A DNA stretch of 64,000 bases from Terebella lapidaria (Eukaryota > Annelida > Polychaeta > Terebellida > Terebellidae): the NCBI GenBank assembly GCA_949152475.1, contig OX424560.1:43478719-43542718 (forward strand), written 5' to 3'. Below the pieces are notes generated by a model. That model was not told where the DNA came from. It ran no database searches and was given only the letters and a program-made list of their open reading frames with translations. This document shows, in pieces, positions 13,059-60,430 of this stretch; position 1 is the first letter of the stretch; each line of letters starts with the position of its first letter. Both the position numbers and the translations under genes were made by a program.

Positions 13059-13122
13059 GTAAGTCCAGACCGAAAGTCGTTTGCATAGCTATAAAAAGCA
13101 TCATAATACACGATAAGAAAAC

Positions 13123-13500
13123 ATCAACCCACAGCATCAATCAAATACATCCACTCAAAACGTCAGTCAGATACATTCAGCCACAGCATCAATCAAATAC
13201 ATCCACTCAAAACGTCAGTCAGATACATTCAGCCACAGCATCAGTCAAATACATCCACTCAAAACGTCAGTCAGATACATTCAGCCACAGCATCAGTCAA
13301 ATACATCCACTCAAAACGTCAGTCAGATACATTCAGCCACAGCATCAATCAAATACATCCACTCAAAACGTCAGTCAGATACATTCAGCCACAGCATCAG
13401 TCAAATACATCCACTCAAAACGTCAGTCAGATACATTCACCCACAGCATCAGTCACATACATCCACTCAAAACGTCAGTCAAATACATTAACTCACAACA
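13123..13500 (+). repeat. 26/52-bp minisatellite, left arm of an inverted pair
   Basis: About seven units of 52 bp, each two related 26-mers: CAGCATCAGTCAAATACATC.. and AAACGTCAGTCAGATACATT... All three + frames stay open through the array, because 52 is not a multiple of 3 and yet one frame runs through every unit. The same 26-mer occurs in opposite orientation directly downstream. Confidence 0.9.
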
Positions 13501-13503
13501 CCA

Positions 13504-13853
13504 GTTGTATTTGACTGATGTTGTGATTGGATGTATTTGACTGCTGTTGTGAGTGGATGTATTTGACTGCTGTTGTGAGTGGATGTATTTGACTGCTGTT
13601 GTGAGTGGATGTATTTGACTGCTGTTGTGAGTGGATGTATTTGACTGATGTTGTGAGTGGATGTATTTGACTGATGTTGTGAGTGGATGTATTTGACTGC
13701 TGTTGTGAATGGATGTATTTGACTGCTGTTGTGAGTGGATGTATTTGACTGATGTTGTGATTGGATGTATTTGACTGCTGTTGAGTGGATGTATTTGACT
13801 GCTGTTGTGAGTGGATGTATTTGACTGCTGTTGTGAGTGGATGTATTTGAATG
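13504..13853 (-). repeat. 26-bp minisatellite, right arm of an inverted pair
   Basis: About thirteen 26-bp units (TGTTGTGAGTGGATGTATTT + GACTGC on the + strand) are the reverse complement of the left-arm monomer. The junction at about 13500 is nearly symmetric. RNA from this intron could fold into a stem of over 300 bp. The arm ends about 18 nt before the exon 5 acceptor. Confidence 0.9.
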
Positions 13854-13870
13854 ATGACTGTGCCCCCCAG

Positions 13871-14038
13871 TGTTACCTTTCAACCCACACAATTTGACCC
13901 GGCGATGTGAGACGAACACCCCGCCCCCTGGTGACAAAGCCTGCACCAGCAGCACCGACCCCAGAACTGGCCTGACAACCACCACGTGCCGTTGCTATGG
14001 AGACATCTGTAACGCCTTCGGCCCGACCCTACAAGACA
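13871..14038 (+). CDS. Exon 5: Ly6/uPAR-like module, second half
   Basis: The acceptor GCCCCCCAG|TGTTACC and donor AAGACA|GTAAGT give phase 1 to 1 and 56 residues. It encodes RRCETNTPPPGDKACTSSTD... ending TTTCRCYGDICNAFG. The C-x-C-YGD-x-CN ending is the hallmark of Ly6/uPAR three-finger domains, whose last cysteine is followed by Asn. With exon 4 it makes one complete module of about 115 residues, somewhat longer than typical. The family normally binds proteins at the cell surface. Confidence 0.75.
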
Positions 14039-14292
14039 GTAAGTGTCAGACCAACGCCACGTGTAGACTATCATGTGTGGATCTGAATGCACCAAATAAA
14101 TACATCGGTACAAAATACTAATAGTCCGGTGACAGTCATAATGATCACGTCATAACCGAGGCTCGACAGAACAAGGAGTAGGCCTACATATGGCCTGTGA
14201 GTCGTGATGTCATGGTTCGATTTCCGGTGGCAAAATACACTTTTTGTTTAATATGAGTAGAAATCCATTCAACATTCAAATTACTCAGGTAA

Positions 14293-15838
14293 GGGGCCGG
14301 TCATTATTTACTGGGTGGGGGGATTGGGGTTTTTTTTTCCGAGAAATGAGTTTTCAAAGTTTGACCCCCCACCGATATCGAAAACCAATCTATGACCCCC
14401 CCCCCCACCAAGATCCAAAATAAAAGTATGACCCCCCCCCCCCCCCCAATCCCCATTTCTAGTGAAACAATTGTGACATTTGTCGTAAATGTATGATACT
14501 ATAAGGTCAGTGAATATTATGATTTGTGCTCTTCGTGTATCCACCATTCGTTCGCTTCAAGTGTGAATGCCATGATAACAATTATTACTTGTATGCATAC
14601 TATATATGGGCACTTAACAGCCCATCGTTTCGGAGCCCACTTGAAACACTCAAGACCTATGTCAAAGATCGTTCAGTTGATTCCTTGACTCCGAAATTTT
14701 TGATGGAATGGGAAAAATGTATGAAACCCCTTACGGATTTTACTGGATCTTTACTGGACACCATAGCGAACTCACAAAACATACAGGGCTCTTCCACATA
14801 TCATTGATGAGCAGGGAAGAATTGGTGATCAGGCCATTCAGAACTGTTTGTTTTTTTTCTAGTCTTGAATCAGGTCTGTGTTGGCTATATGATGGGCTCA
14901 TAATGTTCTGCCACCATCCAAATCATGTGAGTCAGATTCACTATCCGGGTCATCCAAGGCGACCCAGGACTATTCTGCCATTCTGTGTGGAAAGGTCCAT
15001 GTCTTTTACATGGTGGTTTGTGATAGTCCTGAGGTATTTGGGGAATATCCTCAGTGGGGTCATGTGTTGACAAAATTTTGAGTGGAAAACCGGTCTGTGG
15101 TTCTGACATGCTAGTTCGGGCTCATCGGAAGGGATGATATGTTGCTCAGGGTGGTATGGACTGGTTGATCCGTGGTTTGTTTGTGACAGGACCCTGCTGA
15201 TCTGGGTTCGTCTTTGCTGGCACCGTGTTCAACTGTAGTGCTGCTCCGTTAGGTCCGAAGTTGATTCTTGGTGACAATGTTTCAATCTGAGTGATGAGCG
15301 TTGATCAATGCACATCAGGGCTCAGAATTGCCACTTGTGGGTAGCCATAGGCTCATAACATTTCAGATTTGCTCCAAGGCAATAGAGCTCACGAGCCAAT
15401 TTGCTGATGAAAATCTGTAAAGTGATATTGAAATATGCTCCTATGAGCAAATTGGCTCCTGAAAATTGTTGAATAGGAGCGAAAAAGGAGCCTTTGGCTC
15501 CTGGATAAAATTATAAATTTTGAGCCCTGATGCACACGGATTGCAGCATCTCTTGATGTTAGTGTTTATGGATGGTCCTCTGCAGGATCCGGTTTCAGTG
15601 AGATTATGGTTTTGACTGAAAATGTTATGAAATTCCATCGCCTACTCCAATGAGTCCATGTGCTGATCTTGAGTGGATTGTTTCCACCTAATTATTTAAC
15701 TATTTTACCATTCAGATTTTCCCAAAATAACCCAATTTCAAACTCCGACCCCCCCCCCCCCCAGTCCCATCGAAAATAAAAGTATCCACCCCCACCCCCA
15801 GTTTTTACCCCCCCCCCTGATAAATAATGACCGGCCCC
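14293..15838. mobile_element. DNA transposon with perfect 18-bp TIRs and TAA target duplication, PIF/Harbinger-like
   Basis: GGGGCCGGTCATTATTTA at 14293-14310 is repeated exactly, inverted, at 15821-15838. TAA flanks both ends (14290-14292 and 15839-15841), as expected for a TWA target. G/C homopolymer-rich subterminal blocks follow at each end, with the shared phrase AAAATAAAAGTAT. The 1.2-kb interior (about 14520-15680) has short frames without recognisable transposase motifs. The superfamily is inferred from the TWA-type duplication only. A second element is inserted at 15315-15530. Confidence 0.75.
15315..15530. mobile_element. 216-bp MITE nested in the larger transposon
   Basis: Ends TCAGGGCTCAGAATT and, inverted, AATTTTGAGCCCTGA form a near-perfect TIR of about 15 bp. 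TGCACA directly repeats at 15309-15314 and 15531-15536 as the probable target-site duplication. The interior holds repeated GGCTCCT/AGGAGCC words. It has no coding capacity. It must have inserted after the host element at 14293-15838. Confidence 0.8.
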
Positions 15839-15969
15839 TAACACAAAAGGTGTATGTTTGTTTGCCAAAATCATACCGTGATGGCACGTGACTTACAGGC
15901 CCTAACAAAGACCGTCTTTGGCCCTAATAAGTTTTCTTCGACACACACAAAAGGTGACGAAATATGCAG

Positions 15970-16148
15970 TGCCAGTCCGCCAGAACATGGTCTGTGTTGC
16001 AGGCTGTGTGGCGCTGTACGCCTTTGATGGCAATGCCGAGGACATTACGGTCAACAACAGAGACGGGTCCCCATTCGCGGTGCGCTTCGATGCCACAGAC
16101 GCTCAGAAAAACTTCTCCGCTGATTTCCAAGGCGACGGCAGTATCGGT
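15970..16148 (+). CDS. Exon 6: start of LamG domain
   Basis: The acceptor AATATGCAG|TGCCAG and donor ATCGGT|GTATGT give phase 1 to 0 and 60 residues. It encodes MVCVAGCVALYAFDGNAEDITVNN.., then PFAVRFDATDAQKNFSADFQGDGSIG. ALYAFDGNAED is the typical first strand of LamG-like jelly-roll domains (L-Y-x-FDGN-x-xD), where an Asp often helps bind calcium. The exon links the Ly6 module to the C-terminal LamG domain. Confidence 0.85.
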
Positions 16149-16387
16149 GTATGTATTCGTTCGTTGATTGTCATTTCATCCAACCTTTATTTTCCTTCGT
16201 TTTATTCCAGATATGAAAACTTGTTTGCGGAGAAGAGAACATTTTATCTCTAATTAGTAAAGAAATTTATACGAATTCTGAGAAGTGATTGTAAATCTCT
16301 ATTTTAATGGTTCCAGTGCACTATTTGCTGGATAATCCACTTCGCCCAGTTTTCATATGGTGACAGTTAATGACTTTTGGTTTCTAG

Positions 16388-16490
16388 GTGCTGGGATTCC
16401 GTAACTTCAACTGGGGCACGCTGATCAGTTTCCTGGAGCGGAACCCGGCATTCACAATCTGTCTGTGGATCAAACGCACGGGTCGAATTG
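16388..16490 (+). CDS. Exon 7: LamG domain, FTICLWIK strand
   Basis: The acceptor TGGTTTCTAG|GTGCTG and donor CGAATTG|GTATGTG give phase 0 to 1 and 34 codons: VLGFRNFNWGTLISFLERNP then AFTICLWIKRTGRIG. The F-T-x-x-LWIK strand is highly characteristic of LamG/pentraxin-like folds (compare FTVSAWVK). The phase joins exons 6 and 8 cleanly. Confidence 0.9.
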
Positions 16491-16740
16491 GTATGTGTCT
16501 GTGCTCACTTCCCGTCCTGGGGAATGAAGGCAATTTTCTCTGATGTAGGGTGTCCTATATTTCATGCTCTGAAGGTAGACCGAAACTTTATAATTACAAT
16601 TTGTTTGGAAGTATCAGATATTGGAAACATACATTGTATTATGAGATACATTGATAAATGAATTTGCTCTTCGCTCAGGCAGAGTCCAAACGGACAATCT
16701 CCAGATGATGGTTCTATGTTCGTAAAGTTTCGGTCTATTT

Positions 16741-18179
16741 TTAGGTTACCGGACCTTTGGTCCGATAACCTATTGGCATGGCGTTGCGTCCGTCGTCCGT
16801 CCGTCCGTCCGTCCGTCCGTCCGTCCGTCCGTCCGTCCGTCCGTCCGTCCGTCCGTCCGGCGTTAACATTTTTATCTTTAAAGTTAACGATCGAATCTTT
16901 CTGAAATTTTGCACAAAAATGCCTAAAAATATTTTGAGAAGGAGGTATTTTTTTGTTTTTTGATTTTCGCATTTTTTTCAAAATGGCGGCCGTTTTTGTC
17001 GAAAAACGCTCAATTTTGGACTTTGACGGCCATTTTCTCAAAAACTGTCTGTTCAGTTTTGAGTTTTTGGTTTCAAAAGATTCCCCTCATATACCTCTGT
17101 GATATGTATAAGTTTGGTTGCCCTAAATCTGCCGGTTTCCGTGTGGCGGCCATTTTGAATTTTTGGCGGGTCGGCGAAAAAAAATTTTTTCGCCCCAGAT
17201 CGCATTACTATCCATTTTGGGCCATTTCTAGAGCAAAAAAAAATTTTCACCCTTTGAAAAAAATTTTAGACTTAGAAAATTTTCGGCACTTTTTCCCTTC
17301 ATAATGGGAGCTGTCCGGACTGTACTCATAGAACGCTTGAAGATAGAGCTTAGAAATTGGCACTTTCAAATGGGAAGTCATATATGGCGACTTGTGTGGT
17401 GACCTTGAATTTGACCTTGGATGACCTTGAAAGGTCAAAACAGCCATTTTTGGGTCGAAAAACGCTCAAATTTGCACCTGGTCTGTATTTTCTCAAAAAC
17501 TCTCAGATCAGTTTTGAGATTTTTGCTTAAAAAGATTCCTCTTATATACCTCTGTGACGTGTATAAGTTTTGTTGCCCTTGAATCGCCGATCTCAGTGTG
17601 GCGGCCATTTTGAATTTTTGACGAGTCGGCGAAAAAAATTTTTTTCGCCCCAAATCTCATTACTATCCATTTTGGGCCATTTCTAGGCAAAAAAAATTTT
17701 CACCCTTTGAAAAAAATTTTGAAGAAATTTTTGGACCTTGAATTTGACCTTGGATGACCTTGAAAGGTCAAAACAGCCATTTTGGGGTCAAAAAATGCCC
17801 AGATTTGCCTTTGTAGATGAAATGCTTGCAGATAGAGCTCATGTTTGCATTATGAACATATAGGAAGACATATATGGCACAACTAATGATGACCTTGAAC
17901 TTGACGTCAGATGACCTTGAGTGCCAAATGTCTGACTTGGAATGTGTAAATTGACCTGAGCGGCCTAGACGATTCCACCCAACATATAGAATATCAAATG
18001 CCGCACACATACATGTAATGGTTACATCGAAGTTCATACGGATGACCTTGATTGGTAAATCCCAAGGTCATATGTTTACACTGCGAACCTTGATTGGTAA
18101 ATCTCAAGGTCTGTTACCTGCCAATGCTGCCATGGCCAAACCAAAATTGTCCGGTAACCTATCTTAGCCTTTGGGCTAA
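16741..18179 (+). mobile_element. Hairpin-ended, (CCGT)n-bearing transposon family, copy 1
   Basis: The left end is TTAGGTTACCGGACC-TTT-GGTCCGATAACC, a hairpin. It is followed by TATTGGCATGGCGTTGCGTC and a (CCGT)n tract to 16860. The right end is CCGGTAACCTATCTTAGCC-TTT-GGGCTAA, again a hairpin. The interior has tandem segments with GGCGGCCATTTTGAA, GTATAAGTTT and repeated TGACCTTGA. There is no coding capacity. It lies wholly in intron 7. Inverted copies are at 50913-52837 and 57866-59021. The superfamily is unknown; the shared inner inverted motif GGTTACCGGAC suggests a DNA element. Confidence 0.85.
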
Positions 18180-18234
18180 TTTTTAACCATCCTGTACATA
18201 ACGTTATGTATTTCTAGAGGTTTTTTACATACAG

Positions 18235-18386
18235 GTCGCCAGTCTCTGTTGAATAACGGCCCGGTAGGTCGCGCATCTATCGATCTGTATACAGAACCTG
18301 ATCCAATCAATGCCAATCAATTCTACATCAAAGCCGACGTCACAATCGGCGGAACCGTATACAGCGTGACGTCATCACAAGGACAG
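18235..18386 (+). CDS. Exon 8: LamG domain, central strands
   Basis: The acceptor TTACATACAG|GTCGCC and donor GGACAG|GTACAA give phase 1 to 0 and 51 residues: RQSLLNNGPVGRASIDLYTEPDP.., then QFYIKADVTIGGTVYSVTSSQGQ. It continues the jelly roll between FTICLWIK (exon 7) and WHYVALVI (exon 9). Its donor opens the 23.4-kb satellite intron. The frame stays open for another 100 nt past the donor, but exon 9 joins in phase at GTACAA, which supports this end. Confidence 0.85.
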
Positions 18387-18504
18387 GTACAAAACGCTAT
18401 CTCGTGGACTGACGGCATTCATCTTCAAGACACCCGAACATTAGATATTGCGTGTTCTGCATCAAGACTGCGACATACTAGTGTTTAATTGACATACGTG
18501 TAAA

Positions 18505-21500
18505 TTGTGTTTTGACATTCTGACGGGCTGTGTTTGACACTGACAGGCTGTGTTCTAACACTGTGACGAACGTGTTCGACACTAACAGGTGATGTTTTCA
18601 CTCTGTAATAGGCTGTGTTTGACACTGACAGGCTGTGTTCTAACACTGTGATGGACGTGTTTGACACTAACATGTGATGTTTTCACTCTGTAATAGGCTG
18701 TGTTTGACACTGACAGGCTGTGTTCTAACACTGTGACGGACGTGTTCGACACTAACAGGTGATGTTTACACTCTGTAATAGGCTGTGTTCTAACACTGTG
18801 GCGGACGTATTCGACACTAACAGGTGATGTTTTCACTCTGTATTAGGCTGTGTTTGACACTGACAGGCTGTGTTCTAACACTGTGACGGACGTATTTGAC
18901 ACTAGCCGGTGATGTTTTCACTCTGTATTAGGCTGTGTTTGACACTGACAGGCTGTGTTCTAACACTGTGACGGACGTATTTGACACTAACATGTGATGT
19001 TTTCACTCTGTAATAGGCTGTGTTTGACACTGACAGGCTGTGTTCTAACACTGTGATGGACGTGTTCGACTCTAGCAGGTGATGTTTTCACTCTGTAATA
19101 GGCTATGTTTGACACTGACAGGCTGTGTTCTAACACTGTGATGGACGTGATCGACACTTACAGGTGATGTTTACACTCTGTAATAGGCTGTGTTTGACAC
19201 TGACAGGCTGTGTTCTAACACTGTGACGGGCGTGTTCGACACTAACAGGTGATGTTGTCACTCTGTAATAGGCTATGTTTGACACTGACAGGCTGTGTTC
19301 TAACACTGTGGCGGACGTGTTCGACACTAACAGGTGATGTTTTCACTCTGTATTAGGCTGTGTTTGACACTGACAGGCTGTGTTCTAACACTGTGGCGGA
19401 CGTATTCGACACTAACAGGTGATGTTTTCACTCTGTATTAGGCTGTGTTTGACACTGACAGGCTGTGTTCTAACACTGTGACGGACGTATTTGACACTAA
19501 CAGGTGATGTTTTCATTCTGTAATAGGCTGTGTTTGACACTGACAGGCTGTGTTCTAACACTGTGATGGACGTGTTCGACTCTAGCAGGTGATGTTTTCA
19601 CTCTGTAATAGGCTATGTTTGACACTGACAGGCTGTGTTCTAACACTGTGATGGACGTGATCGACACTAACAGGTGATGTTTACACTCTGTAATAGGCTG
19701 TGTTTGACACTGACAGGCTGTGTTCTAACACTGTGATGGACGTGTTCGACTCTAGCAGGTGATGTTTTCACTCTGTAATAGGCTGTGTTTGACACTGACA
19801 GCCTGTGTTCTAACACTGTGACAGGCGTGTTACTAACAGGTGATGTTTTCACTCTGTAATAGGCTGTGTTTGACACTGACAGGCTGTGTTCTAACACTGT
19901 GATGGACGTGTTTGACACTAACATGTGATGTTTTCACTCTGTAATAGGCTGTGTTTGACACTGACAGGCTGTGTTCTAACACTGTGACGGACGTGTTCGA
20001 CACTAACAGGTGATGTTTACACTCTGTAATAGGCTGTGTTCTAACACTGTGACGGACGTATTTGACACTAGCAGGTGATGTTTTCACTCTGTATTAGGCT
20101 GTGTTTGACACTGACAGGCTGTGTTCTAACACTGTGACGGACGTATTTGACACTAACATGTGATGTTTTCACTCTGTAATAGGCTGTGTTTGACACTGAC
20201 AGGCTGTGTTCTAACACTGTGATGGACGTGTTCGACTCTAGCAGGTGATGTTTTCACTCTGTAATAGGCTATGTTTGACACTGACAGGCTGTGTTCTAAC
20301 ACTGTGATGGACGTGATCGACACTTACAGGTGATGTTTACACTCTGTAATAGGCTGTGTTTGACACTGACAGGCTGTGTTCTAACACTGTGACGGGCGTG
20401 TTCGACACTAACAGGTGATGTTGTCACTCTGTAATAGGCTATGTTTGACACTGACAGGCTGTGTTCTAACACTGTGGCGGACGTGTTCGACACTAACAGG
20501 TGATGTTTTCACTCTGTATTAGGCTGTGTTTGACACTGACAGGCTGTGTTCTAACACTGTGGCGGACGTATTCGACACTAACAGGTGATGTTTTCACTCT
20601 GTATTAGGCTGTGTTTGACACTGACAGGCTGTGTTCTAACACTGTGACGGACGTATTTGACACTAACAGGTGATGTTTTCATTCTGTAATAGGCTGTGTT
20701 TGACACTGACAGGCTGTGTTCTAACACTGTGATGGACGTGTTCGACTCTAGCAGGTGATGTTTTCACTCTGTAATAGGCTATGTTTGACACTGACAGGCT
20801 GTGTTCTAACACTGTGATGGACGTGATCGACACTAACAGGTGATGTTTACACTCTGTAATAGGCTGTGTTTGACACTGACAGGCTGTGTTCTAACACTGT
20901 GATGGACGTGTTCGACTCTAGCAGGTGATGTTTTCACTCTGTAATAGGCTGTGTTTGACACTGACAGCCTGTGTTCTAACACTGTGACAGGCGTGTTACT
21001 AACAGGTGATGTTTTCACTCTGTAATAGGCTGTGTTTGACACTGACAGGCTGTGTTCTAACACTGTGATGGACGTGTTTGACACTAACATGTGATGTTTT
21101 CACTCTGTAATAGGCTGTGTTTGACACTGACAGGCTGTGTTCTAACACTGTGACGGACGTGTTCGACACTAACAGGTGATGTTTACACTCTGTAATAGGC
21201 TGTGTTCTAACACTGTGGCGGACGTATTCGACACTAACAGGTGATGTTTTCACTCTGTATTAGGCTGTGTTTGACACTGACAGGCTGTGTTCTAACACTG
21301 TGACGGACGTATTTGACACTAGCAGGTGATGTTTTCACTCTGTATTAGGCTGTTTGACACTGACAGGCTGTGTTCTAACACTGTGACGGACGTATTTGAC
21401 ACTAACATGTGATGTTTTCACTCTGTAATAGGCTGTGTTTGACACTGACAGGCTGTGTTCTAACACTGTGATGGACGTGTTCGACTCTAGCAGGTGATGT

Positions 21501-24500
21501 TTTCACTCTGTAATAGGCTATGTTTGACACTGACAGGCTGTGTTCTAACACTGTGATGGACGTGATCGACACTTACAGGTGATGTTTACACTCTGTAATA
21601 GGCTGTGTTTGACACTGACAGGCTGTGTTCTAACACTGTGACGGGCGTGTTCGACACTAACAGGTGATGTCACTCTGTAATAGGCTATGTTTGACACTGA
21701 TAGGCTGTGTTCTAACACTGTGGCGGACGTGTTCGACACTAACAGGTGATGTTTTCACTCTGTATTAGGCTGTGTTTGACACTGACAGGCTGTGTTCTAA
21801 CACTGTGGCGGACGTATTCGAAACTAACAGGTGATGTTTTCACTCTGTATTAGGCTGTGTTTGACACTGACAGGCTGTGTTCTAACACTGTGACGGACGT
21901 ATTTGACACTAACAGGTGATGTTTTCATTCTGTAATAGGCTGTGTTTGACACTGACAGGCTGTGTTCTAACACTGTGATGGACGTGTTCGACTCTAGCAG
22001 GTGATGTTTTCACTCTGTAATAGGCTATGTTTGACACTGACAGGCTGTGTTCTAACACTGTGATGGACGTGATCGACACTAACAGGTGATGTTTACACTC
22101 TGTAATAGGCTGTGTTTGACACTGACAGGCTGTGTTCTAACACTGTAATGGACGTGTTCGACTCTAGCAGGTGATGTTTTCACTCTGTAATAGGCTGTGT
22201 TTGACACTGACAGCCTGTGTTCTAACACTGTGACAGGCGTGTTTGACACTAACAGGTGATGTTTTCACTCTGTAATAGGCTGTGTTTGACACTGACAGGT
22301 TGTGTTCTAACACTGTGACGGACGTGTTCGACACTAACAGGTGATGTTTACACTCTGTAATAGGCTGTGTTTGACACTGACAGGCTGTGTTCTAACACTG
22401 TGATGGACGTGATCGACACTAACAGGTGATGTGTTCACTCTGTAATAGGCTGTGTTTGACACTGACAGGCTGTGTTCTAACACTGTGATGGACGTGATCG
22501 ACACTAACAGGTGATGTTTACACTATGTAATAGGCTATGTTTGACACTGACAGGCTGTGTTCTAACACTGTGACAGGCGTGTTCGACTCTAACAGGTGAT
22601 GTTTTCACTCTGTAATAGGCTGTGTTTGACACTGACAGGCTGTGTTCTAACACTATGACGGACGTGTTCGACTCTAACAGGTGATGCTTTCACTCTGTAA
22701 TAGCCTGTGTTGTTTGACACTGACAGGCTGTGTTCTAACACTGTGATGGACGTGTTCGACACTAACAGGTGATGTTTTCATTCTGTAATAGGCTGTGTTT
22801 GACACTGACAGGTTGTGTTCTACCACTGTGATGGACGTGTTCGACACTAACAGGTGATGTTTTCACTCTGTAATAGGCTGTGTTTGACACTGACAGGTTG
22901 TGTTCTAACACTGTGACGGACGTATTCGACACTAACAGGTGATGTTTTCACTCTGTATTAGGCGGTGTTTGACACTGACAGGCTGTGTTCTAACACTGTG
23001 ACGGACGTATTTGACACTAACAGGTGATGTTTTCACTCTGTATTAGGCTGTGTTTGACACTGACAGGCTGTGTTCTAACACTGTGGCGGACGTATTCGAC
23101 ACTAACAGGTGATGTTTTCACTCTGTATTAGGCTGTGTTTGACACTGACAGGCTGTGTTCTAACACTGTGGCGGACGTATTCGACACTAACAGGTGATGT
23201 TTTCACTCTGTAATAGGCTGTGTTCTAACACTGTGGCGGACGTATTCGACACTAACAGGTGATGTTTTCACTCTGTATTAGGCTGTGTTTGACACTGACA
23301 GGCTGTGTTCTAACACTGTGACGGACGTGTTCAACACTAACAGGTGATGTTTTCACTCTGTAATAGGCTGTGTTTCACACTGACAGGCTGTGTTCTAACA
23401 CTGTGATGGACGTGTTCGACTCTAGCAGGTGATGTTTTCACTCTGTAATAGGCTGTGTTCTAACACTGTGGCGGACGTATTCGACACTAACAGGTGATGT
23501 TTTCACTCTGTATTAGGCTGTGTTTGACACTGACAGGCTGTGTTCTAACACTGTGACGGACGTATTTGACACTAGCAGGTGATGTTTTCACTCTGTAATA
23601 GGCTGTGTTTCACACTGACAGGCTGTGTTCTAACACTGTGATGGACGTGTTCGACTCTAGCAGGTGATGTTTTCACTCTGTAATAGGCTGTGTTCTAACA
23701 CTGTGACGGACGTATTTGACACTAACAGGTGATGTTTTCATTCTGTAATAGGCTATGTTTGACACTGACAGGCTGTGTTCTAACACTGTGATTGACATTT
23801 TCGACACTAACAGGTGATGTTTACACTCTGTAATAGGCTGTGTTCTAACACTGTGACGGACGTGTTCGACACTAACAGGTGATGTTTACACTCTGTAATA
23901 GGCTGTGTTTGACACTGACAGGCTGTGTTCTAACACTGTGATGGACGTGTTCGACACTAACAGGTGATGTTTTCACTCTGTAGTAGGCTGTGTTTGACAC
24001 TGACAGGCTGTGTTCTAACACTGTGATGGACGTGATCGACACTAACAGGTGATGTTTTCACTCTGTAATAGGCTGTGTTTGACACTGACAGCCTGTGTTC
24101 TAACACTGTGATGGACGTGTTTGACACTAACAGGTGATGTTCTCACTCTGTAATAGGCTGTGTTTGACACTGACAGGCTGTGTTCTAACACTCTGATGGA
24201 CGTGTTCGACACTAACAGGTGATGTTTACACTCTGTAATAGGCTGTGTTTGACACTGCAAGGCTGTGTTCTAACACTGTGATGGACGTGTTCGACACTAA
24301 CGTGTGATGCTTTCACTCTGTAATAGGCTGTGTTTGACACTGACAGCCTGTGTTCTAACACTGTGATGGACGTGTTTGACACTAACAGGTGATGTTTTCA
24401 CTCTGTAATAGGCTGTGTTTGACACTGACAGGTTGTGTTCTAACACTGTGATGGACGTGTTCGACACTAACAGGTGATGTTTTCACTCTGTAATAGGCTG

Positions 24501-27500
24501 TGTTTGACACTGACAGGTTGTGTTCTGACACTGTGACGGACGTGTTCGACACTATCAGGTGATGTTTTCACTCTGTAATAGGCTGTGTTTGACACTGACA
24601 GCCTGTGTTCTAACACTGTGACGGACATGTTCGACACTAACAGGTGATGTTTTCACTCTGTAATAGGCTGTGTTTGACACTGACATGCTGTGTTCTAACA
24701 CTGTGATGGACGTGTTCGGCACTAACAGGTTATGTTCTAATTCTGTAATAGTCTGTATTTGACACTGACAGGCTGTGTTCTAACACTAGGCTGTGTTCTA
24801 ACACTAACAGGTGATGTTTTCACTCTGTAATAGTCTGTGTTTGACACTGACAGGCTGTGTTCTAACACTAGGCTGTGTTCTAACACTAACAGGTGATGTT
24901 TTCACTCAGTAATAGGCTGTGTTTGACACTGACAGGCTGTGTTCTAACACTGTGACGGACGTGTTTGACACTAACAGGTGATGTTTTCACTCTGTAATAG
25001 GCTGTTTGACACTGACAGGCTGTGTTCTAACACTGTGACGGACGTGTTCGACACTAACAGGTGATGTTTTCACTCTGTAATAGGCTGTGTTTGACACTGA
25101 CAGGCTGTGTTCTAACACTGTGACGGACGTGTACGACACTAACAGGTGATGTTTTCACTCTGTAATAGGCTGTGTTTGACACTGACAGGCTGTGTTCTAA
25201 CACTGTGATGGACGTGTTCGGCACTAACATGTTATGTTCTCATTCTGTAATAGTCTGTATTTGACACTGACAGGCTGTGTTCTAACACTAGGCTGTGTTC
25301 TAACACTAACAGGTGATGTTTTCACTCTGTAATAGTCTGTGTTTGACACTGACAGGCTGTGTTCTAACACTAGGCTGTGTTCTAACACTAACAGGTGATG
25401 TTTTCACTCAGTAATAGGCTGTGTTTGACACTGACAGGCTGTGTTCTAACACTGTGACGGACGTGTTTGACACTAACAGGTGATGTTTTCACTCTGTAAT
25501 AGGCTGTTTGACACTGACAGGCTGTGTTCTAACACTGTGACGGACGTGTTCGACACTAACAGGTGATGTTTTCACTCTGTAATAGGCTGTGTTTGACACT
25601 GACAGGATGTGTTCTAACACTGTGACGGACGTGTACGACACTAACAGGTGATGTTTTCACTCAGTAATAGGCTGTGTTTGACACTGACAGGCTGTGTTCT
25701 AACACTAACAGGTGATGTTTTCACTCTGTAATAGGTGTTTCACACTGGCAGGCTGTGTTCTAACACTGTGACGGGCGTGTTTGACACTAACAGGTGATGT
25801 TTTCACTCTGTAATAGGCTGTGTTTGACACTGACAAGCTGTGTTCTAACACTGTGACGGACGTGTTTGACACTAACAGGTGATGTTTTCACTCTGTAATA
25901 GGCTGTGTTTGACACTGGCAGGCTGTGTTCTAACACTGTGACGGACGTTTTCGACACTAACAGGTGATGTTTTCACTCTGTAATAGGCTGTGTTTGACAC
26001 TGACAGGCGTGTTTGACACTAACAGGTGATGTTTTCACTCTGTAATAGGCTGTTTGACACCGACAGGCTGTGTTCGACACTAACAGGTGATGTTTTCACT
26101 CTGTAATAGGCTGTGTTTGACACTGACAGGCTGTGTTCTAACACTGTGACGGGCGTGTTCGACACTAACAGGTGATGTTTCACTCTGTAATAGGCTGTGT
26201 TTGACACTGACAGCCTGTGTTCTAACACTGTGATGGGCCTGTTCGACACTAACAGGTGATGTTTTCACTCTGTAACAGGCTGTGTTTGACACTGACAGGC
26301 TGTGTTCTAACACTGTGATGGACGTGTTTGACACTAACAGGTGATGTTTGCACTCTGTAATAGGCTGTGTTTGACACTGACAGGCTGTGTTCTAACACTG
26401 TGATGGACGTGTTTGACACTAACAGGTGATGTTTGCACTCTGTAATAGGCTGTGTTTGACACTGATAGGTTGTGTTCTAACACTGTGACGGACGTGTTCG
26501 ACACTAACAGGTGATGTTTGCACTCTATAATAATCTGTGTTTGACACTGACAGGCTGTGTTCTAACACTGTGACGGACGTTTTCGACACTAACAGGTGAT
26601 GTTTTCACTCTGTAATAGGCTGTGTTTGACACTGACAGGCGTGTTTGACACTAACAGGTGATGTTTTCACTCTGTAATAGGCTGTTTGACACCGACAGGC
26701 TGTGTTCGACACTAACAGGTGATGTTTTCACTCTGTAATAGGCTGTGTTTGACACTGACAGGCTGTGTTCTAACACTGTGACGGGCGTGTTCGACACTAA
26801 CAGGTGATGTTTCACTCTGTAATAGGCTGTGTTTGACACTGACAGCCTGTGTTCTAACACTGTGATGGGCCCGTTCGACACTAACAGGTGATGTTTTCAC
26901 TCTGTAACAGGCTGTGTTTGACACTGACAGGCTGTGTTCTAACACTGTGATGGACGTGTTTGACACTAACAGGTGATGTTTGCACTCTGTAATAGGCTGT
27001 GTTTGACACTGACAGGCTGTGTTCTAACACTGTGATGGACGTGTTTGACACTAACAGGTGATGTTTGCACTCTGTAATAGGCTGTGTTTGACACTGATAG
27101 GTTGTGTTCTAACACTGTGACGGACGTGTTCGACACTAACAGGTGATGTTTTCACTCTATAATAATCTGTGTTTGACACTGACAGGCTGTGTTCTAACAC
27201 TGTGACGGGCGTGTTTGACACCAACAGGTGATGTTTTCATTCTGTAATAGGCTGTGTTTGACACTGACAGGCTGTGTTCTAACACTGTGACGGACGTGTT
27301 TGACACTAACAGGTGATGTTTTCACTCTGTAATAGGCTGTGTTTGACACTGACAGGCTGTGTTCTAACACTCTGATGGACGTGTTCGACACTAACAGGTG
27401 ATGTTTTCACTCTCTAATAGGCTGTGTTTGACACTGCAAGGCTGTGTTCTAACACTGTGACGGACGTGTTCGACACTAACGTGTGATGCTTACACTCTGT

Positions 27501-41832: not shown

Positions 41833-41995
41833 GCTGTGTTTGACACGTGGCATTACGTGGCACTGGTGATAACCAACTCGCCCCTGGTGCCATCTTCCGG
41901 CGCTTTCTACTTCGTGCAGCTGTTTGTTGATGATGTCATACAGGCCACAGATCCCTCGACCTATGCCCAAACCAACGTGGCAGCCTCCACAACTA
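41833..41995 (+). CDS. Exon 9: LamG domain, WHYVALVI and LFVDD strands
   Basis: The acceptor is TCTGTGACAG|GCTGTG and the donor CAACTA|GTGAGT, phase 0 to 1, 54 residues: AVFDTWHYVALVI..., then AFYFVQLFVDDVIQATDPS. W-HYVALVI and L-F-VDD are standard LamG strands. The first five codons (AVFDT) are the segment copied through the whole preceding intron, so the true acceptor is the last of several hundred similar AG|GCTGTG sites. The residues after codon five are absent from the repeats, which fixes this as the real exon. Confidence 0.9.
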
Positions 41996-42151
41996 GTGAG
42001 TCCGAGCATTCTAGCATTATATTTTTACAAATATTCGAGCATGTGTGTGAGGCTTTTTGATTTCAATTTATCACGTTCAGAACGATGGTACTTAGAGAGA
42101 AAGTAACTGACTTCACAAGTAATCGTAGATCGTGTGTCCCTTCATCACCAG

Positions 42152-42288
42152 GCCAGGCTATAGACCCAGGGGTTTACGGACTGAGGATCGGTAACCAAGG
42201 GACACCAGCGGCAGGGGGTGTGTTGATTGGTGGAAACACAGACTTCTTTGTCGGCAACATGGATGAGGTGACGATGATAGAGAGACGG
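42152..42288 (+). CDS. Exon 10: end of LamG domain
   Basis: The acceptor CATCACCAG|GCCAGG, entered in phase 1, encodes QAIDPGVYGLRIGNQGTPAAGGVLIGGNTDFFVGNMDEVTMIERR. LRIGN and F-x-GNMDEV-x-x-x-ER are the closing strands of a LamG domain. An in-frame TAG follows directly at 42289-42291. Alternatively a GT donor at 42288-42289 ends the exon at 42287, and an acceptor at 42386 starts a last exon. Confidence 0.85.
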
Positions 42289-42386
42289 TAGACATGATAC
42301 TCGGAGCACTGCTGGTCAAGATGCTTATGAGTAATAGTATAAGTTTAATGTTTTGATTTGATATTGTTGTAATGTTGACTTTTCAG

Positions 42387-52837: not shown

Positions 52838-52870
52838 TTAACAATTGCCAACAATAACAGCTTTTTTGCA

Positions 52871-53025
52871 CTATGAGCACTGGATGATATTGTGCAGTTG
52901 CAGTTCCTTGATACTCTGGGGGGAGTAGCCAAGATGTTCTCTCAGGACCGCCTCAGTGTGCTGGCCCATCTCAGGAGGAGGGTTCTGCACACCTAGAGCT
53001 CCCTCACTGTAGGACACCGCAGGGC
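52871..53025 (-). CDS. SUGCT: SUGCT terminal exon (C-terminus)
   Basis: The acceptor TCTTGGACAG|GCCCTG is entered in phase 1 and the exon ends in TAG (52873-52871). It encodes PAVSYSEGALGVQNPPPEMG and then QHTEAVLREHLGYSPQSIKE followed by about ten residues. The G-Q-H-T-x-x-VL-x-E-LGY block closes nearly all class III CoA-transferases. An apparent upstream extension (EEISWTG) is intronic: only the junction at 53025 restores VPG|PAV in phase. Confidence 0.9.
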
Positions 53026-53134
53026 CTGTCCAAGAGATTTCCTCAACAATTAGTATGATACACCAGGAGAACCCAGACTGAGTCATTCTTCAAAACAGCA
53101 TCTATCGCAAAGGAATGACATGTTCAAGTCGAAC

Positions 53135-53198
53135 CTGGTACTCTCATTTCACCAAGTCTGGAATGCTTGACCTCTTGTATCACCTGGTTATGTAGAAC
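53135..53198 (-). CDS. SUGCT: SUGCT exon: VLHN...VPG
   Basis: A 64-nt exon. The acceptor GTTATCCAG|GTTCTA and donor GTACCAG|GTTCGA give phase 0 to 1: VLHNQVIQEVKHSRLGEMRVPG. It matches the VLHN..HP..G.I.VPG stretch of the family. A closer GTGAAA donor after CTTG was considered and rejected, because it breaks the frame with the terminal exon. Confidence 0.85.
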
Positions 53199-53296
53199 CT
53201 GGATAACAGAGTGAGATGTTTAAACTGGGTCGGAGTGCTAACTGATATGAGATGAGATAATGTTCACGGTGTTGTTGATATATATTTAGTATGTAC

Positions 53297-53392
53297 CTGT
53301 GGGTCACTGAAAACCTGTTGCATGTTGTTGACGGGACCATACGGTACAGCTGTGTCACTCAGCAGCTCAGACCACTCAGCATTGGTCTTGGT
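53297..53392 (-). CDS. SUGCT: SUGCT exon: VPYGPVNNMQQVFSDPQ
   Basis: The acceptor AGATTTCAG|ACCAAG and donor CCACAG|GTACAT give phase 0 to 0 and 32 codons: TKTNAEWSELLSDTAVPYGP then VNNMQQVFSDPQ. The V-PYGP-x-N motif, followed by F-DPQ, is a signature of class III CoA-transferases (the region after the helical linker). Confidence 0.9.
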
Positions 53393-53497
53393 CTGAAATC
53401 TTCAAAAATATCCTTGTTCAGAAATGTCGTGGTCTTGTGGGGGTAACAGGTAAGGAAATTCACCATAACGTTTCAATACATAAACTACACACTTCAC

Positions 53498-53590
53498 AGC
53501 TAATAGCTCTATCAAAGCCCCTCGGTTGTTGACTCGATTTTCATTGCTGGAGAAACGCTCATCTTCCAAAAGGAATTCCATTTCCATTTT
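53498..53590 (-). CDS. SUGCT: SUGCT exon: helical linker region
   Basis: The acceptor GCTGTTCAAG|AAAATG and donor TTAGCT|GTGAAG give phase 0 to 0 and 31 codons: KMEMEFLLEDERFSSNENRV then NNRGALIELLA. It corresponds to the family segment D-x-RF/KY-x-x-N-x-x-R-V-x-NR-x-x-L. The sequence is poorly conserved, so borders are set by splice sites and by frame with both neighbours. The open frame continues on both sides into the introns. Confidence 0.75.
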
Positions 53591-53677
53591 CTTGAACAGC
53601 AAAAGAGAAAACTCCATGAAGCACCGTGAATCTAAAGTGACTAAATATCACTGCAGACAGAAAGGTTAACAATTTAC

Positions 53678-53749
53678 CTGGCACATCTCCCTGAAGAGCT
53701 TTTCGTTGCCAGCTCCGATCATGAAGTACCCGTCAGTTGTCTTGAACGC
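53678..53749 (-). CDS. SUGCT: SUGCT exon: AFKTTDGYFMIGAGNEKLF
   Basis: A 72-nt exon. The acceptor TTTTCATCAG|GCGTTC and donor TGCCAG|GTAAAT give phase 0 to 0: AFKTTDGYFMIGAGNEKLFR EMCQ. F-x-T-DGY-x-x-IGAGN is a conserved family strand. It directly follows GSIVPYQ of the preceding exon, from which it is separated by the 38-bp array. Confidence 0.9.
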
Positions 53750-53814
53750 CTGATGAAAATCATTTCATTGAACAATAAGCATATTAGGTTTCTCAAAAAA
53801 CAGTGACACCTGCT

Positions 53815-56800
53815 AGAGTAATCCCAAGTCCATAAGTCATAGCTGATAAAGTACAATACTCCCAAGTCCACATGTCATAGCTGATAAGGTACAATACTCC
53901 CAAGTCCACATGTCATAGCTGATAAAGTACAATACTCCCAAGTCCACATGTCATAGCTGATAAGGTACAATACTCCCAAGTCTACGTGTCATAGCTGATA
54001 AGGTACAATACTCCCAAGTCCACATGTCATAGCTGATAAGGTACAATACTCCCAAGTCCACATGTCATAGCTGATAAGGTACAATACTCCCAAGTCCACA
54101 TGTCATAGCTGATAAGGTACAATACTCCCAAGTCTACGTGTCATAGCTGATAAGGTACAATACTCCCAAGTCTACGTGTCATAGCTGATAAGGTACAATA
54201 CTCCCAAGTCAACATGTCATAGCTGATAAGGTACAATACTCCCAAGTCCACATGTCATAGCTGATAAGGTACAATACTCCCAAGTCCACATGTCATAGCT
54301 GATAAGGTACAATACTCCCAAGTCCACATGTCATAGCTGATACGGTACAATACTCCCAAGTCCACATGTCATAGCTGATAAGGTACAATACTCCCAAGTC
54401 CACATGTCATAGCTAATAAGGTACAATACTCCCGAGTTCACGTATCATACCTGATAAGGTACAATACTCCCAAGTCCACATGTCATAGCTAATAAGGTAC
54501 AATACTCCCGAGTTCACGTATCATACCTGATAAGGTACAATACTCCCAAGTCCACATGTCATAGCTGATAAGGTACAATACTCCCAAGTCCACATGTCAT
54601 AGCTGATAAGGTACAATACTCCCAAGTCCACATGTCATAGCTGATAAGGTACAATACTCCCAAGTCCACATGTCATAGCTGATAAGGTACAATACTCCCA
54701 AGTCCACATGTCATAGCTGATAAGGTACAATACTCCCAAGTCCACATGTCATAGCTGATAAGGTACAATACTCCCAAGTCCACATGTCATAGCTGATACG
54801 GTACAATACTCCCAAGTCCACATGTCATAGCTGATAAGGTACAATACTCCCAAGTCCACATGTCATAGCTAATAAGGTACAATACTCCCGAGTTCACGTA
54901 TCATACCTGATAAGGTACAATACTCCCAAGTCCACGTGTCATACCTGATAAGGAACAATACTACCAAGTCCACGTGTCATAGCTGATAAGGTACAATACT
55001 CCCAAGTCCACATGTCATAGCTGATAAGGTACAATACTCCCAAGTCCACGTGTCATACCTGATAAGGAACAATACTACCAAGTCCATGTGTCATAGCTGA
55101 TAAGGTACAATATTCCCAAGTCCACATGTCATAGCTGATAAGGTACAATACTCCCAAGTCCACATGTCATAGCTGATAAGGTACAATACTCTCAAGTCCA
55201 CGTGTCATACCTGATAAGGTACAATACTCCCAAGTCCACGTGTCATACCTGATAAGGAACAATACTACCAAGTCCACGTGTCATAGCTGATAAGGTACAA
55301 TATTCCCAAGTCCACATGTCATAGCTGATAAGGTACAATACTCCCAAGTCCACATGTCATAGCTGATAAGGTACAATACTCTCAAGTCCACGTGTCATAC
55401 CTGATAAGGTACAATACTCCCAAGTCCACATGTCATAGCTGATAAGGAACAATACTCCCAAGTCCACATGTCAAAGCTGATAAGGTACAATACTCCCAAA
55501 ACCAAGTGTCATACCTGATAAGGTACAATACTCCCAAGTCCACATGTCATAGCTGATAAGGAACAATACTCCCAAGTCCACATGTCAAAGCTGATAAGGT
55601 ACAATACTCCCAAGTCCACATGTCATAGCTGATAAGGTACAATACTCCCAAGTCCACATGTCATACCTGATAAGGTACAATACTCCCAAGTCCACATGTC
55701 ATAGCTGATAAGGAACAATACTCCCAAGTCCACATGTCAAAGCTGATAAGGTACAAAACTCCCAAGTCCACATGTCATAGCTGATAAGGTACAATACTCC
55801 CAAGTCCACATGTCATAGCTGATAAGGTACAATACTCCCAAGTCCACATGTCATACCTGATCAGGTACAATACTCCCAAGTCCACATGTCATAGCTGATA
55901 AGGAACAATACTCCCAAGTCCACATGTCAAAGCTGATAAGGTACAATACTCCCAAGTCCACGTGCCATAGCTGATAAGGTACAATACTCCCAAGTCCACA
56001 TGTCAGCTGATAAGGTACAATACTCCCAAGTCCACATGTCAAAGCTGATAAGGTACAATACTCCCAAGTCCACGTGTCATACCTGAAAAGGTACAATACT
56101 CCCAAGTCCACATGTTAGCTGATGAGGTACAATACTCCCAAGTCCACATGTCATAGCTGATAAGGTACAATACTCCCAAGTCCACATGTTAGCTGATGAG
56201 GTACAATACTCCCAAGTCCACATGTCAAAGCTGATAAGGTACAATACTCCCAAGTCCACATGTTAGCTGATGAGGTACAATACTCCCAAGTCCACATGTT
56301 AGCTGATGAGGTACAATACTCCCAAGTCCACATGTCATACCTGATAAGGTACAATACTCCCAAGTCCACATGTTAGCTGATGAGGTACAATACTCCCAAG
56401 TCCACATGTCAAAGCTGATAAGGTACAATACTCCCAAGTCCACATGTTAGCTGATGAGGTACAATACTCCCAAGTCCACATGCTAGCTGATGAGGTACAA
56501 TACTCCCAAGTCCACATGTCATAGCTGATAAGGTACAATACTCCCAAGTCCACATGTTAGCTGATGAGGTACAATACTCCCAAGTCCACATGTCATAGCT
56601 GATAAGGTACAATACTCCCAAGTCCACATGTTAGCTGATGAGGTACAATACTCCCAAGTCCACATGTCAAAGCTGATAAGGTACAATACTCCCAAGTCCA
56701 CATGTTAGCTGATGAGGTACAATACTCCCAAGTCCACATGTTAGCTGATGAGGTACAATACTCCCAAGTCCACATGTCATACCTGATAAGGTACAATACT

Positions 56801-57723
56801 CCCAAGTCCACATGTTAGCTGATGAGGTACAATACTCCCAAGTCCACATGTCAAAGCTGATAAGGTACAATACTCCCAAGTCCACATGTTAGCTGATGAG
56901 GTACAATACTCCCAAGTCCACATGTCATAGCTGATAAGGTACAATATTCCCAAGTCCACATGTCAAAGCTGATAAGGTACAATACTCCCAAGTCCACATG
57001 TCATAGCTGATAAGGTACAATACTCCCAAGTCCACATGTCATAGCTGATAAGGTACAATACTCCCAAGTCCACATGTCATACCTGATAAGGTACAATACT
57101 CCCAAGTCCACATGTCATAGCTGATAAGGTACAATATTCCCAAGTCCACGTGTCATAGCTGATAAGGTACAATACTCCCAAGTCCACATGTCATACCTGA
57201 TAAGGTACAATACTCCCAAGTCCACATGTCATAGCTGATAAGGTACAATATTCCCAAGTCCACATGTCATACCTGATAAGGTACAATATTCCCAAGTCCA
57301 CATGTCATACCTGATAAGGTACAATACTCCCAAGTCCACATGTCATACCTGATAAGGTACAATACTCCCAAGTCCACATGTCATACCTGATAAGGTACAA
57401 TATTCCCAAGTCCACGTGTCATAGCTGATAAGGTACAATACTCCCAAGTCCACATGTCATACCTGATAAGGTACAATACTCCCAAGTCCACATGTCATAG
57501 CTGATAAGGTACAATATTCCCAAGTCCACGTGTCATAGCTGATAAGGTACAATACTCCCAAGTCCACATGTTAGCTGATGAGGTACAATACTCCCAAGTC
57601 CACATGTCATAGCTGATAAGGTACAATATTCCCAAGTCCACGTGTCATAGCTGATAAGGTACAATACTCCCAAGTCCACATGTCAGCTGATAGGTACAAT
57701 ACTCCCAAAACGAAGTATCATAC
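53815..57723 (-). repeat. 38/36-bp minisatellite made of the SUGCT exon end plus its 5' splice site
   Basis: About 100 units fill almost the whole intron. On the - strand each reads ACTTGGGAGTATTGTACC / TTATCAG / GTATGACATGTGG. From GGGAGT to TATCAG it equals the last 21 nt of the neighbouring exon (57744-57724, encoding GSIVPYQ). GTATGA equals the authentic donor. By eye, roughly twenty units keep CAG|GT; most read CAGCTATGA and have lost the GT. A 36-bp variant with CTCATCAGCTAACATG dominates about 56100-56930. Units keeping GT are densest next to the exon (57060-57520). The array stops about 65 nt before the next exon. Confidence 0.95.
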
Positions 57724-57819
57724 CTGATAAGGTACAATACTCCCATGCCCACTGCCCCACCGTTTCGCTTCGACACCACAATTCAAAAAGTTGGAGGCGA
57801 TATGGGTCAAAGTAGCAAC
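57724..57819 (-). CDS. SUGCT: SUGCT exon: [16 protein letters not shown]
   Basis: The acceptor TTCTATTGTAG|GTTGCT and donor TTATCAG|GTATGA give phase 0 to 0 and 32 codons: [20 protein letters not shown] then [12 protein letters not shown]. The RWG-x-GH-x-S-x-VPYQ motif is diagnostic for the family (active-site loop region). The last seven codons and the donor are copied about a hundred times in the following intron. Confidence 0.9.
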
Positions 57820-57865
57820 CTACAATAGAAAATACACATTACACACATACCTAATGATGTAAAAA

Positions 57866-59021
57866 TTAGCCCAAGGGCTAAGAAAGGTTACCGGACAATG
57901 TATACTTCATATATTAGCCCTCTGTCCCATGACCTTGAAAATACGGTCATTGGTCAATTCAAGGTCACGATAACATTCAGCCCATATCATTTTAGCATGT
58001 CCACAATTGATTCCTACACTGTAAAGTCAATATTAAGTGAGATATTAGCCATTTTGTGATCTGATCTTGAAAATGAGGTCAAAGGTCAAGTTAAGGTCAT
58101 GAGATTGCAGCATATATCATTTCCAATATGTTCACAATTGACACCTAAGCTGTAAAGTCGATAACAAGTGAAATATTAACTTTTCTTGTTCTCTGACCTT
58201 GAAAATAAGGTCAAGGTCAAATTCAAGGTCACCAAAATATTCAGCATATACCATCCACAACTGATTGCTAAGCTGTAAAGTCGATAATGAGCGAGATATC
58301 ACTCATTTTGTTCTCTGACCTTGAAAATGAGGTCAAAGGTCGAATTCAAGGTCATGACAATATTCAGCATGTATCATTTCCTATAGGTCCACAAATGATT
58401 CCTAAGCTGTAAAGTCAATAATAAGCGAGATATTGGCCATTTTGTACTATGACCTTGAAAATAAGGTCATAGGTCAAAATCAAGGTCACAAGAATTTTCA
58501 GCATATATCATTACCTATATGTCCACAATTGATTCCTAGTCTCTAATCTCAATATTAAGTGAGATATTAGGCAAAATGTGTCCAATTATAAAGCATAGGG
58601 TGATTTAACATGGGAAAGTCCCATTTGGGCAGAGTTTGGGCCCAAAATGGCCCACTTCGAGCGATTCAAGGAAAACGAAACTTATACACGTCACAGGAGT
58701 ATATATGAGGAGTGTTATGCATCAATAAAAAAAAAAGGTACTGAACGGATTTGGAGAAAATGACCGTCAAAGTCCAAAATTGGCCATTTTTCGACGAAAA
58801 CGGCCGCCATTTTGAAAAAAAATGCGAAAATCAAAAAACTAAAAAATACCTCCCTCTGGAAATATTTTTAGGCATTTTTGTGCAAAATTTCAGAAAGATT
58901 CAACCGTAAACTTTAAAGATAAAATTGTTTACGGACGACGGACGGACGGACGGCTAGACGGACGGACGCCGGACGCAACGCCATGGCAATAGGTTATCGG
59001 ACCATAGGTCCGGTAACCTAA
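57866..59021 (-). mobile_element. Hairpin-ended transposon family, copy 3, rich in nuclear-receptor-like sites
   Basis: Starts TTAGCCC-AAGGGCTAAGA then GGTTACCGGACAAT; ends GGTTATCGGACC-ATA-GGTCCGGTAACCTAA. The left half (57930-58570) is about five tandem units of about 125 bp. Each carries GACCTTGAAAAT..GGTCA, GGTCAA and TTCAAGGTCA, plus ATTCAGCATATATCATTTCC and GATTCCTAAGCTGTAAAGTC. The right half has the CGGCCGCCATTTTGAAA block and a (CGGA)n tract. A partial tandem copy of the right end follows at 59020-59145. Confidence 0.85.
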
Positions 59022-59260
59022 AAACTAGAGAATAACTCCCTCTGGAAATAGTTTTAGGACTTTGTCTGCAAATTTTTAGAAAGATTCAACTGTAAACTTT
59101 AAAGATAAAATTGTTTACGGAAGGACGACGTACGCACCTAAAAATATATTTTACCTGTGAGGTATGTTAACTCGTACATGAGTAAGTTCATGAATGTATT
59201 TCAGCAGAATATGTTGAAAAGTTTCTGTCATGTACAGAGGTTGAACAATGAACATTGTAC

Positions 59261-59404
59261 CTGAGTGTTGAGAAGGTTGCAGTCTATGTGCTGGCCCTGC
59301 CCAGTTTTCTGGCGATGTATGAGAGCGGCCATGATAGAGCTCAGACCATAGAGGCCGGTGGAAAGATCAGTCAGAGCGACTCCCGCGCGACAGGGCTCAC
59401 CGTC
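59261..59404 (-). CDS. SUGCT: SUGCT exon: catalytic-Asp region (TDLSTGLYG)
   Basis: The acceptor TGTTTCAG|GACGGT and donor CACTCAG|GTACAA give phase 0 to 0 and 48 codons: DGEPCRAGVALTDLSTGLYG, then LSSIMAALIHRQKTGQGQHI and DCNLLNTQ. The Asp in TDLSTG aligns, from memory, with the catalytic Asp that carries the acyl-anhydride intermediate in formyl-CoA transferase. AL-x-HR-x-KTG-x-GQ is the conserved helix-turn that follows. The first 14 nt of this exon and its acceptor are repeated in the upstream intron. Confidence 0.92.
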
Positions 59405-60430
59405 CTGAAACAGATCAACACTCAGATTTAACCAATCAACACCTGACTAACAGGGCTCACCGTACTGAAACAGATCAACACTCAGATTTAACCATTCAAC
59501 ACCTGACTAACAGGGCTCACCATCCTGAAACAGATCAACACTCAGATTTAACCATTCAACACCTGACTAACAGGGCTCACCATCCTGAAACAGATCAACA
59601 CTCAGATTTAACCATTCAACACCTGACTAACAGGGCTCACCGTCCTGAAACAGATCAACACTCAGATTTAACCATTCAACACCTGACTAACAGGGCTCAC
59701 CATCCTGAAACAGATCAACACTCAGATTTAACCATTCAACACCTGACTAACAGGGCTCACCATCCTGAAACAGATCAACACTCAGATTTAACCATTCAAC
59801 ACCTGACTAACAGGGCTCACCATCCTGAAACAGATCAACACTCAGATTTAACCATTCAACACCTGACTAACAGGGCTCACCATCCTGAAACAGATCAACA
59901 CTCAGATTTAACCATTCAACACCTGACTAACAGGGCTCACCGTCCTGAAACATATCAACACTAAGATTTAACCATTCAACACCTGACTAACAGGGCTCAC
60001 CGTCCTGAAACAGATCAACACTCAGATTTAACCATTCAACACCTGACTAACAGGGCTCACCATCCTGAAACAGATCAACACTCAGATTTAACCAATCAAC
60101 ACCTGACTAACAGGGCTCACCATCCTGAAACAGATCAACAATCAACTTTATTCAATCAACACTTGACTAACAGGGTTCACCGTCCTGAAACAGATCAACA
60201 ATCAACTTTATTCAATCAACACCTGACTAACAGGGCTCACCATCCTGAAACAGATTAACAATCAACTTTATTCAATCAACACCTGACTAACAGGGCTCAC
60301 CATCCTGAAACAGATCAACAATCAACTTTATTCAATCAACACTTGACTAACAGGGTTCACCGTCCTGAAACAGATCAACAATCAACTTTATTCAATCAAC
60401 ACTTGACTAACAGGGTTCACCGTCCTGCTA
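59405..60430 (-). repeat. 60-bp minisatellite carrying the SUGCT exon's 3' splice site, about 17 copies
   Basis: The unit on the - strand is GTTGATCTGTTTCAG / GACGGTGAGCCCTG / TTAGTCAGGTGTTGAATGG.., with length exactly 60 bp throughout. TTTCAG|GACGGTGAGCCCTG is identical to the acceptor and first 14 nt of exon 59404-59261; about half the units read GATGGTGAG. Each unit is a decoy acceptor and also contains G|GTGAGC, a donor-like word. Using an upstream copy would keep phase (60 nt) but meets TAG right after CCCTGT. The last five units (60110-60430) form a distinct variant with TTGAATAAAGTTGATTG. Confidence 0.95.

Follow-up and report, generated by a model that had tools for sequence, protein, structure and literature searches.

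The 64-kb stretch of DNA analysed here (hereafter the window), which is the scope of all tests, carries two predicted genes and a dense set of tandem arrays (Table 1). Tandem Repeats Finder (TRF) returned 50 rows for the window, many of them overlapping, and ten arrays were retained as the main set. Exon models were built by hand from the sequence and the exon borders are predictions. The ten predicted exons of gene 1 join into a single open frame, including at the E8-E9 join. Their translation shows weak similarity to PAN and laminin-G domains, with every match falling under the Pfam gathering scores. The laminin-G match reached an E-value of 7.8e-05 and 23.3 bits compared to a gathering score of 27.6, and a PDB search with the laminin-G part of gene 1 returned a single non-significant match (E 0.11). 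Beyond the predicted donor of exon E5, the reading frame stays open through cysteine-containing sequence until a stop (14039-14121), hence gene 1 may end alternatively at this position or represent two genes. The second gene likewise yields a single open frame after joining its exons S1-S8, and encodes a CoA-transferase family III protein similar to SUGCT (Pfam CoA_transf_3, E 7.1e-39 for 135 aa). Residues 1-263 of the 269 query residues match PDB 9br7_A, annotated as 'Succinate--hydroxymethylglutarate CoA-transferase' (E 6.9e-92), which we take to be the human enzyme. The start of the protein is absent from S1-S8, so the gene lies only partly inside the window. A gap of four residues near the S5/S6 junction in the 9br7_A alignment indicates that the border there may be slightly off. 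Searches of the window against RNA families gave no matches at gathering scores.

Table 1. Predicted genes, exons and intronic arrays in the window (. marks features given without strand).
Feature	Position	Strand	Basis
Gene 1, exons E1-E10	10837..42291	+	open-frame join, ends in TAG
Intronic array pair, 52 nt plus inverted 26-nt relative, intron E4-E5	13129..13850	.	TRF
Array 1, about 23 kb, intron E8-E9 of gene 1	18505..41846	+	TRF (18506-41846)
Exon E9, laminin-G-like part; starts at 41833, 5' edge is the 3' end of array 1	41833..41995	+	
SUGCT-like CoA-transferase family III gene, exons S1-S8	52871..62611	-	Pfam, PDB
Array 2, 38-nt unit, intron S3-S4 of SUGCT	53822..57745	-	TRF (53822-57752)
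SUGCT exon S3; ends at 57724, 3' edge (GSIVPYQ) repeated in array 2	57724..57819	-	
SUGCT exon S2; starts at 59404, 5' edge (DGEPC) repeated in array 3	59261..59404	-	
Array 3, 60-nt unit, intron S1-S2 of SUGCT	59390..60427	-	TRF

The units of three intronic arrays carry the edge of the adjacent exon together with its splice position. A first-pass annotation had described the exon overlap as 14-21 nt and the sites as one donor and two acceptors. Array 2 indeed sits at a donor and arrays 1 and 3 at acceptors, and the overlaps of 14, 22 and 15 nt in arrays 1 to 3 agree with the annotation within one base. Array 2 extends over 3.9 kb with about 100 copies 3' of exon S3 of the SUGCT-like gene. Its unit consists of the 22 nt at the 3' end of the exon, followed by the donor position and intronic sequence. 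The complete 22 nt occur 61 times at the array, exon included, and the terminal 17 nt, present 63 times at the array, are absent from the rest of the window on both strands. Donor positions read GT in 21/103 cases with the true donor counted, and CT in the remaining 82. The segment shared between exon and array encodes GSIVPYQ, which is identical in 9br7_A. An array is an improbable origin for conserved coding sequence, so array 2 was derived from exon S3, and copying from the exon edge is well supported. At its far end the array terminates in TGGGA, and the exon match starts at these same 5 nt. We read the presence of TGGGA at both ends as what would be expected of a duplication between short direct repeats.

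Array 3 lies upstream of exon S2 of the same gene and spans 1.0 kb, with 17 full units including the true one and an 18-nt partial unit. Each unit contains the acceptor TTTCAG and the first 15 nt of the exon. The 15-nt exon edge, in exact or slightly varied form, terminates all 17 full units, and the AG is present in 17/17 when the true site is counted. The shared segment encodes DGEPC and aligns with NGDPV of 9br7_A. Only 2/5 residues are identical, and the direction from exon to array is therefore less certain than for array 2; judging from the sequence comparison, the exon edge is still the likely source of the copies. The partial unit at the far end is a copy of the exon S2 edge. At 18 nt it is too long for chance microhomology, thus its origin may have required a further event, for instance a short templated insertion. 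Variation in array 3 is similar within and outside the exonic part of the unit (0.039 vs 0.050, 17 units). In array 2 the exonic part varies less (0.011 vs 0.035, in 69 units of exactly 38 nt with the rest dropped). Selection on the exonic part of the unit was considered and is not claimed.

Array 1 occupies most of the 23,446-nt intron between E8 and E9 of gene 1, and comprises about 1,100 base units according to TRF. The base unit of about 20 nt includes the AG of the acceptor followed by the 14 nt that begin exon E9, GCTGTGTTTGACAC. This 14-mer occurs 202 times at the array with the exon included and is absent elsewhere on the + strand of the window. An AG directly precedes it in 201/202 copies, true site counted, and the segment in common with the exon encodes AVFDT. 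For this array alone, the order of events might be reversed, with an older array whose last unit supplied the exon start after the acceptor had shifted into it. Such an origin is possible, if the less favoured one. It would fit the AG found before all but one copy of the 14-mer, as well as the weak laminin-G match of gene 1 (23.3 bits compared to the gathering score of 27.6). The E8-E9 frame is open though, and the simplest units cluster next to the exon. Units adjoining E9 are single with a spacing of 18-23 nt, whereas away from the exon the spacing is mostly 20-42-23, forming a higher-order unit of 85 nt. This gradient from simple to complex leans towards the exon as the first source. An array-first origin is inapplicable to array 2.

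The three arrays are of a known kind. The first-pass annotation had stated that no named system of this type exists, which is wrong. Minisatellite-like tandem duplications spanning exon-intron boundaries are described in amphioxus as 'mirages', a name coined in cephalochordates, in Adh3 and the globin genes BflGb6 and BflGb9 (PMC3087553), as well as in PGBD5 with TnC cited as a further case (PMC3902484). According to the passages compared from both papers, mirages occur at both 5' and 3' boundaries, the AG or GT is retained in many copies though not in all, and splicing is regular and undisturbed (PMC3087553, PMC3902484). Mirages have also been proposed as a route to new introns (PMC3087553). 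The arrays in the window share this anatomy. All three have units spanning a predicted exon-intron boundary, both boundary types are represented with one donor and two acceptor arrays, and the authentic boundary is retained at the exon-side end with the frame open. Signals persist in many but not all copies (AG in 201/202, GT in 21/103 and AG in 17/17 for arrays 1 to 3). The difference lies in size. In BflGb6, two haplotypes carry 6 and 3 mirage units of 150-160 bp, and units in Adh3 range from 10 to 72 bp (PMC3087553), compared to 17, about 100 and about 1,100 (TRF) base units in the window and the 85-nt higher-order unit of array 1. What goes beyond the published passages compared is the scale and the higher-order structure.

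Similar structures are described in other systems. In the human CBS gene, a 31-bp VNTR with 16-21 copies is located across a donor (c.1444_1467+7(16_21); PMC2630376), a notation that we read as a unit of 24 exonic and 7 intronic nt. The CBS variant c.844_845ins68 duplicates 68 bp of the intron 7/exon 8 junction (PMC2630376). The VNTR unit thus crosses a donor like array 2 and ins68 is a duplicated junction piece, but from what these passages report, both concern a single human gene, the VNTR has a shorter unit and ins68 has just one extra copy. Human segmental duplications contain internal tandem repeats at exon-intron boundaries, with 27 intron modifications (PMC2812944). These are likewise minisatellites at exon-intron borders, yet with a mean of 4 copies of 30 bp and a changed transcript structure in the passages concerned (PMC2812944). 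In the potato RdRp gene, a sequence holding splice signals was tandemly duplicated as well, but a new intron arises in the account given there (PMC4974935), while an existing intron was enlarged in the genes of the window.

The arrays place large numbers of decoy splice sites next to the authentic ones. Read as acceptors, 17/17 of the non-exon copies in array 3 (16 full and the partial one) would encounter a stop after 5 codons. Beyond the true S3 donor, read-through into array 2 would encounter a stop as its second codon. The 201 other exact copies in array 1, in phase 0, lead to a stop within 35 codons, with 159 of them doing so after 21. The genes presumably work through use of the intact exon-side copy, and splicing would have to proceed correctly past the decoy copies. 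With many near-identical decoys located beside the real site, large mirages offer natural tests of how the spliceosome chooses its sites.

Minisatellites can grow by slippage, and duplications can arise between direct repeats. We suggest that the three arrays are mirage-type minisatellites, which originated from local tandem duplications that happened to cross splice junctions (probability about 0.8). A local tandem duplication would by chance have crossed the junction, taking in 14-22 nt of the exon and the adjoining intron sequence. The array would then have expanded into the intron via slippage or unequal exchange, and the 85-nt higher-order unit of array 1 would have formed later. Slippage and direct repeats would be the putative means of duplication. 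The gene can still work because an intact copy of the exon edge remains on the exon side and the remaining ones leave with the intron. Ordinary local duplication across a junction, with later expansion of the array inside the intron, suffices to explain the data. Seeding of the arrays may reflect ordinary duplications that are tolerated at exon edges, rather than a splice-specific trigger. Large arrays are difficult to assemble, and the arrays could in principle be assembly artefacts. However, the copies differ in structured ways including mixed GT and CT donors, higher-order units and variants grouped by position. A simple misjoin would not produce such differences, making an artefact highly improbable, although the assembled copy number may yet be inaccurate.

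The first-pass annotation considered three such coincidences unlikely and postulated a process that starts duplications at splice junctions. To estimate chance, the large arrays were each reduced to one unit and placed at random with the unit length kept, counting a junction as crossed if at least 2 intron nt plus 10 or 14 exon nt were taken in. In the first count, 3/7 in-gene arrays cross a junction, and the probability of three or more is 0.018-0.033. The probability decreases to 0.004-0.010 if a repeat in a mobile-element-like region is left out, and increases to 0.036-0.057 if array 1 is counted by its 85-nt unit. The count of seven left out rows that were short or had units of 1-4 nt and 11 nt (at 14365, 16787, 17237, 60727, 60897 and 62729). 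Restoring these rows gives all 13 in-gene TRF arrays and a probability of 0.028-0.040. The repeat at 58000-58569 was kept uncollapsed in both the seven- and the 13-array estimates. Over the whole window, with the repeats at 58000, 52101 and 61109 kept uncollapsed, the probability is 0.028 for ten arrays and 0.002 for the six large arrays. Without array 1, the probability of two or more among six is 0.13-0.18. The hypothesis was formed on this very window, and the uncorrected P values for three or more (0.002-0.06) are therefore at most suggestive.

Junctions were further scanned for local duplication using 24-mers at 34 junctions and same-strand copies within 3 kb. At 31/34 junctions there was no unusual local copy, and only the three array junctions exceed 16 of 24 bases. 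Matches of at least 20 of 24 bases were found for 3/34 junctions compared to 13.7% of 2000 random in-gene 24-mers, which were drawn outside arrays on the + strand with dispersed repeats included. Junctions as a class are thus not enriched relative to these random in-gene 24-mers. Dispersed repeats are likely behind the high proportion among the random 24-mers. At the same threshold, 0/1384 exon-interior positions and 0.5% of 4097 non-repeat intron positions have a local copy; junctions are enriched over these two controls, which by design exclude array and repeat positions.

A splice-junction-directed process, either R-loop or transcription-linked breakage or microhomology between AG|G sites, that preferentially seeds tandem duplications at exon-intron borders in this genome appears unlikely. 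Such a process would be consistent with the low probabilities of three or more crossings (0.002-0.06 across array lists), the repeated reports from amphioxus genes in the passages compared (PMC3087553, PMC3902484) and the positive sense-strand GC skew of all three arrays (0.13, 0.24 and 0.44 in arrays 1 to 3, hence three cases). However, an intronic array at 13506-13850 that contains no exon sequence has a sense GC skew of 0.68 and exceeds all three. The excess is also post hoc from one window, shifts with the array list and weakens to 0.13-0.18 (two or more of six) without array 1. The other 31/34 junctions lack an unusual copy, and junctions are not enriched over random 24-mers. The claim of an improbable coincidence is weakly supported, with a probability that varies with the choice of arrays and rules. 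Copying of the exon edge itself is well supported for array 2 and likely for array 3, while a junction-specific start has a modest post hoc excess in its favour. We regard it as rather doubtful that duplications are biased towards exon-intron borders genome-wide, generating mirages of one to tens of kb with up to about 1,100 base units and higher-order structure. If shown, such a genome-wide bias would tie the origin of minisatellites to transcription or splicing. If such a bias is true and the host is not a cephalochordate, mirages would have originated or survived far beyond that group.

The window contains further repeats. In the 812-nt intron between E4 and E5, the two adjacent arrays at 13129-13850 are inverted relatives of each other (0/200 shuffles reach the score) and form a mirror-image minisatellite. 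Neither adjoining junction is copied in the pair above background. Intronic repeats with 'reflective' monomers are described for earthworm metallothionein genes (PMC12783039). An array with a 52-nt unit begins about 0.9 kb beyond the stop codon of gene 1 (43191-49884) and has the 11-mer TGTTCTAACAC in common with array 1, which may reflect kinship or chance. In a shuffling test of these two arrays 1/200 shuffles reached the score, but the comparison was one of 21, and kinship is therefore not claimed. An array of 93-nt units with 98% match occupies the extreme left of the window (1-2909), and no kinship was seen between its unit and those of the six other arrays compared. The intron between E3 and E4 carries an imperfect inverted repeat of about 270 nt (12412-12678), with 87% identity to its own reverse complement. 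A dispersed repeat family is present in several copies and both orientations (16734-18184, 50908-52071, 57930-59134 and 62681-63911), and most of the 40 longest matches listed share about 78-96% identity. The family contains CGTC/CGGA microsatellites and AAGGTCA motifs, and perhaps represents a non-autonomous mobile element.
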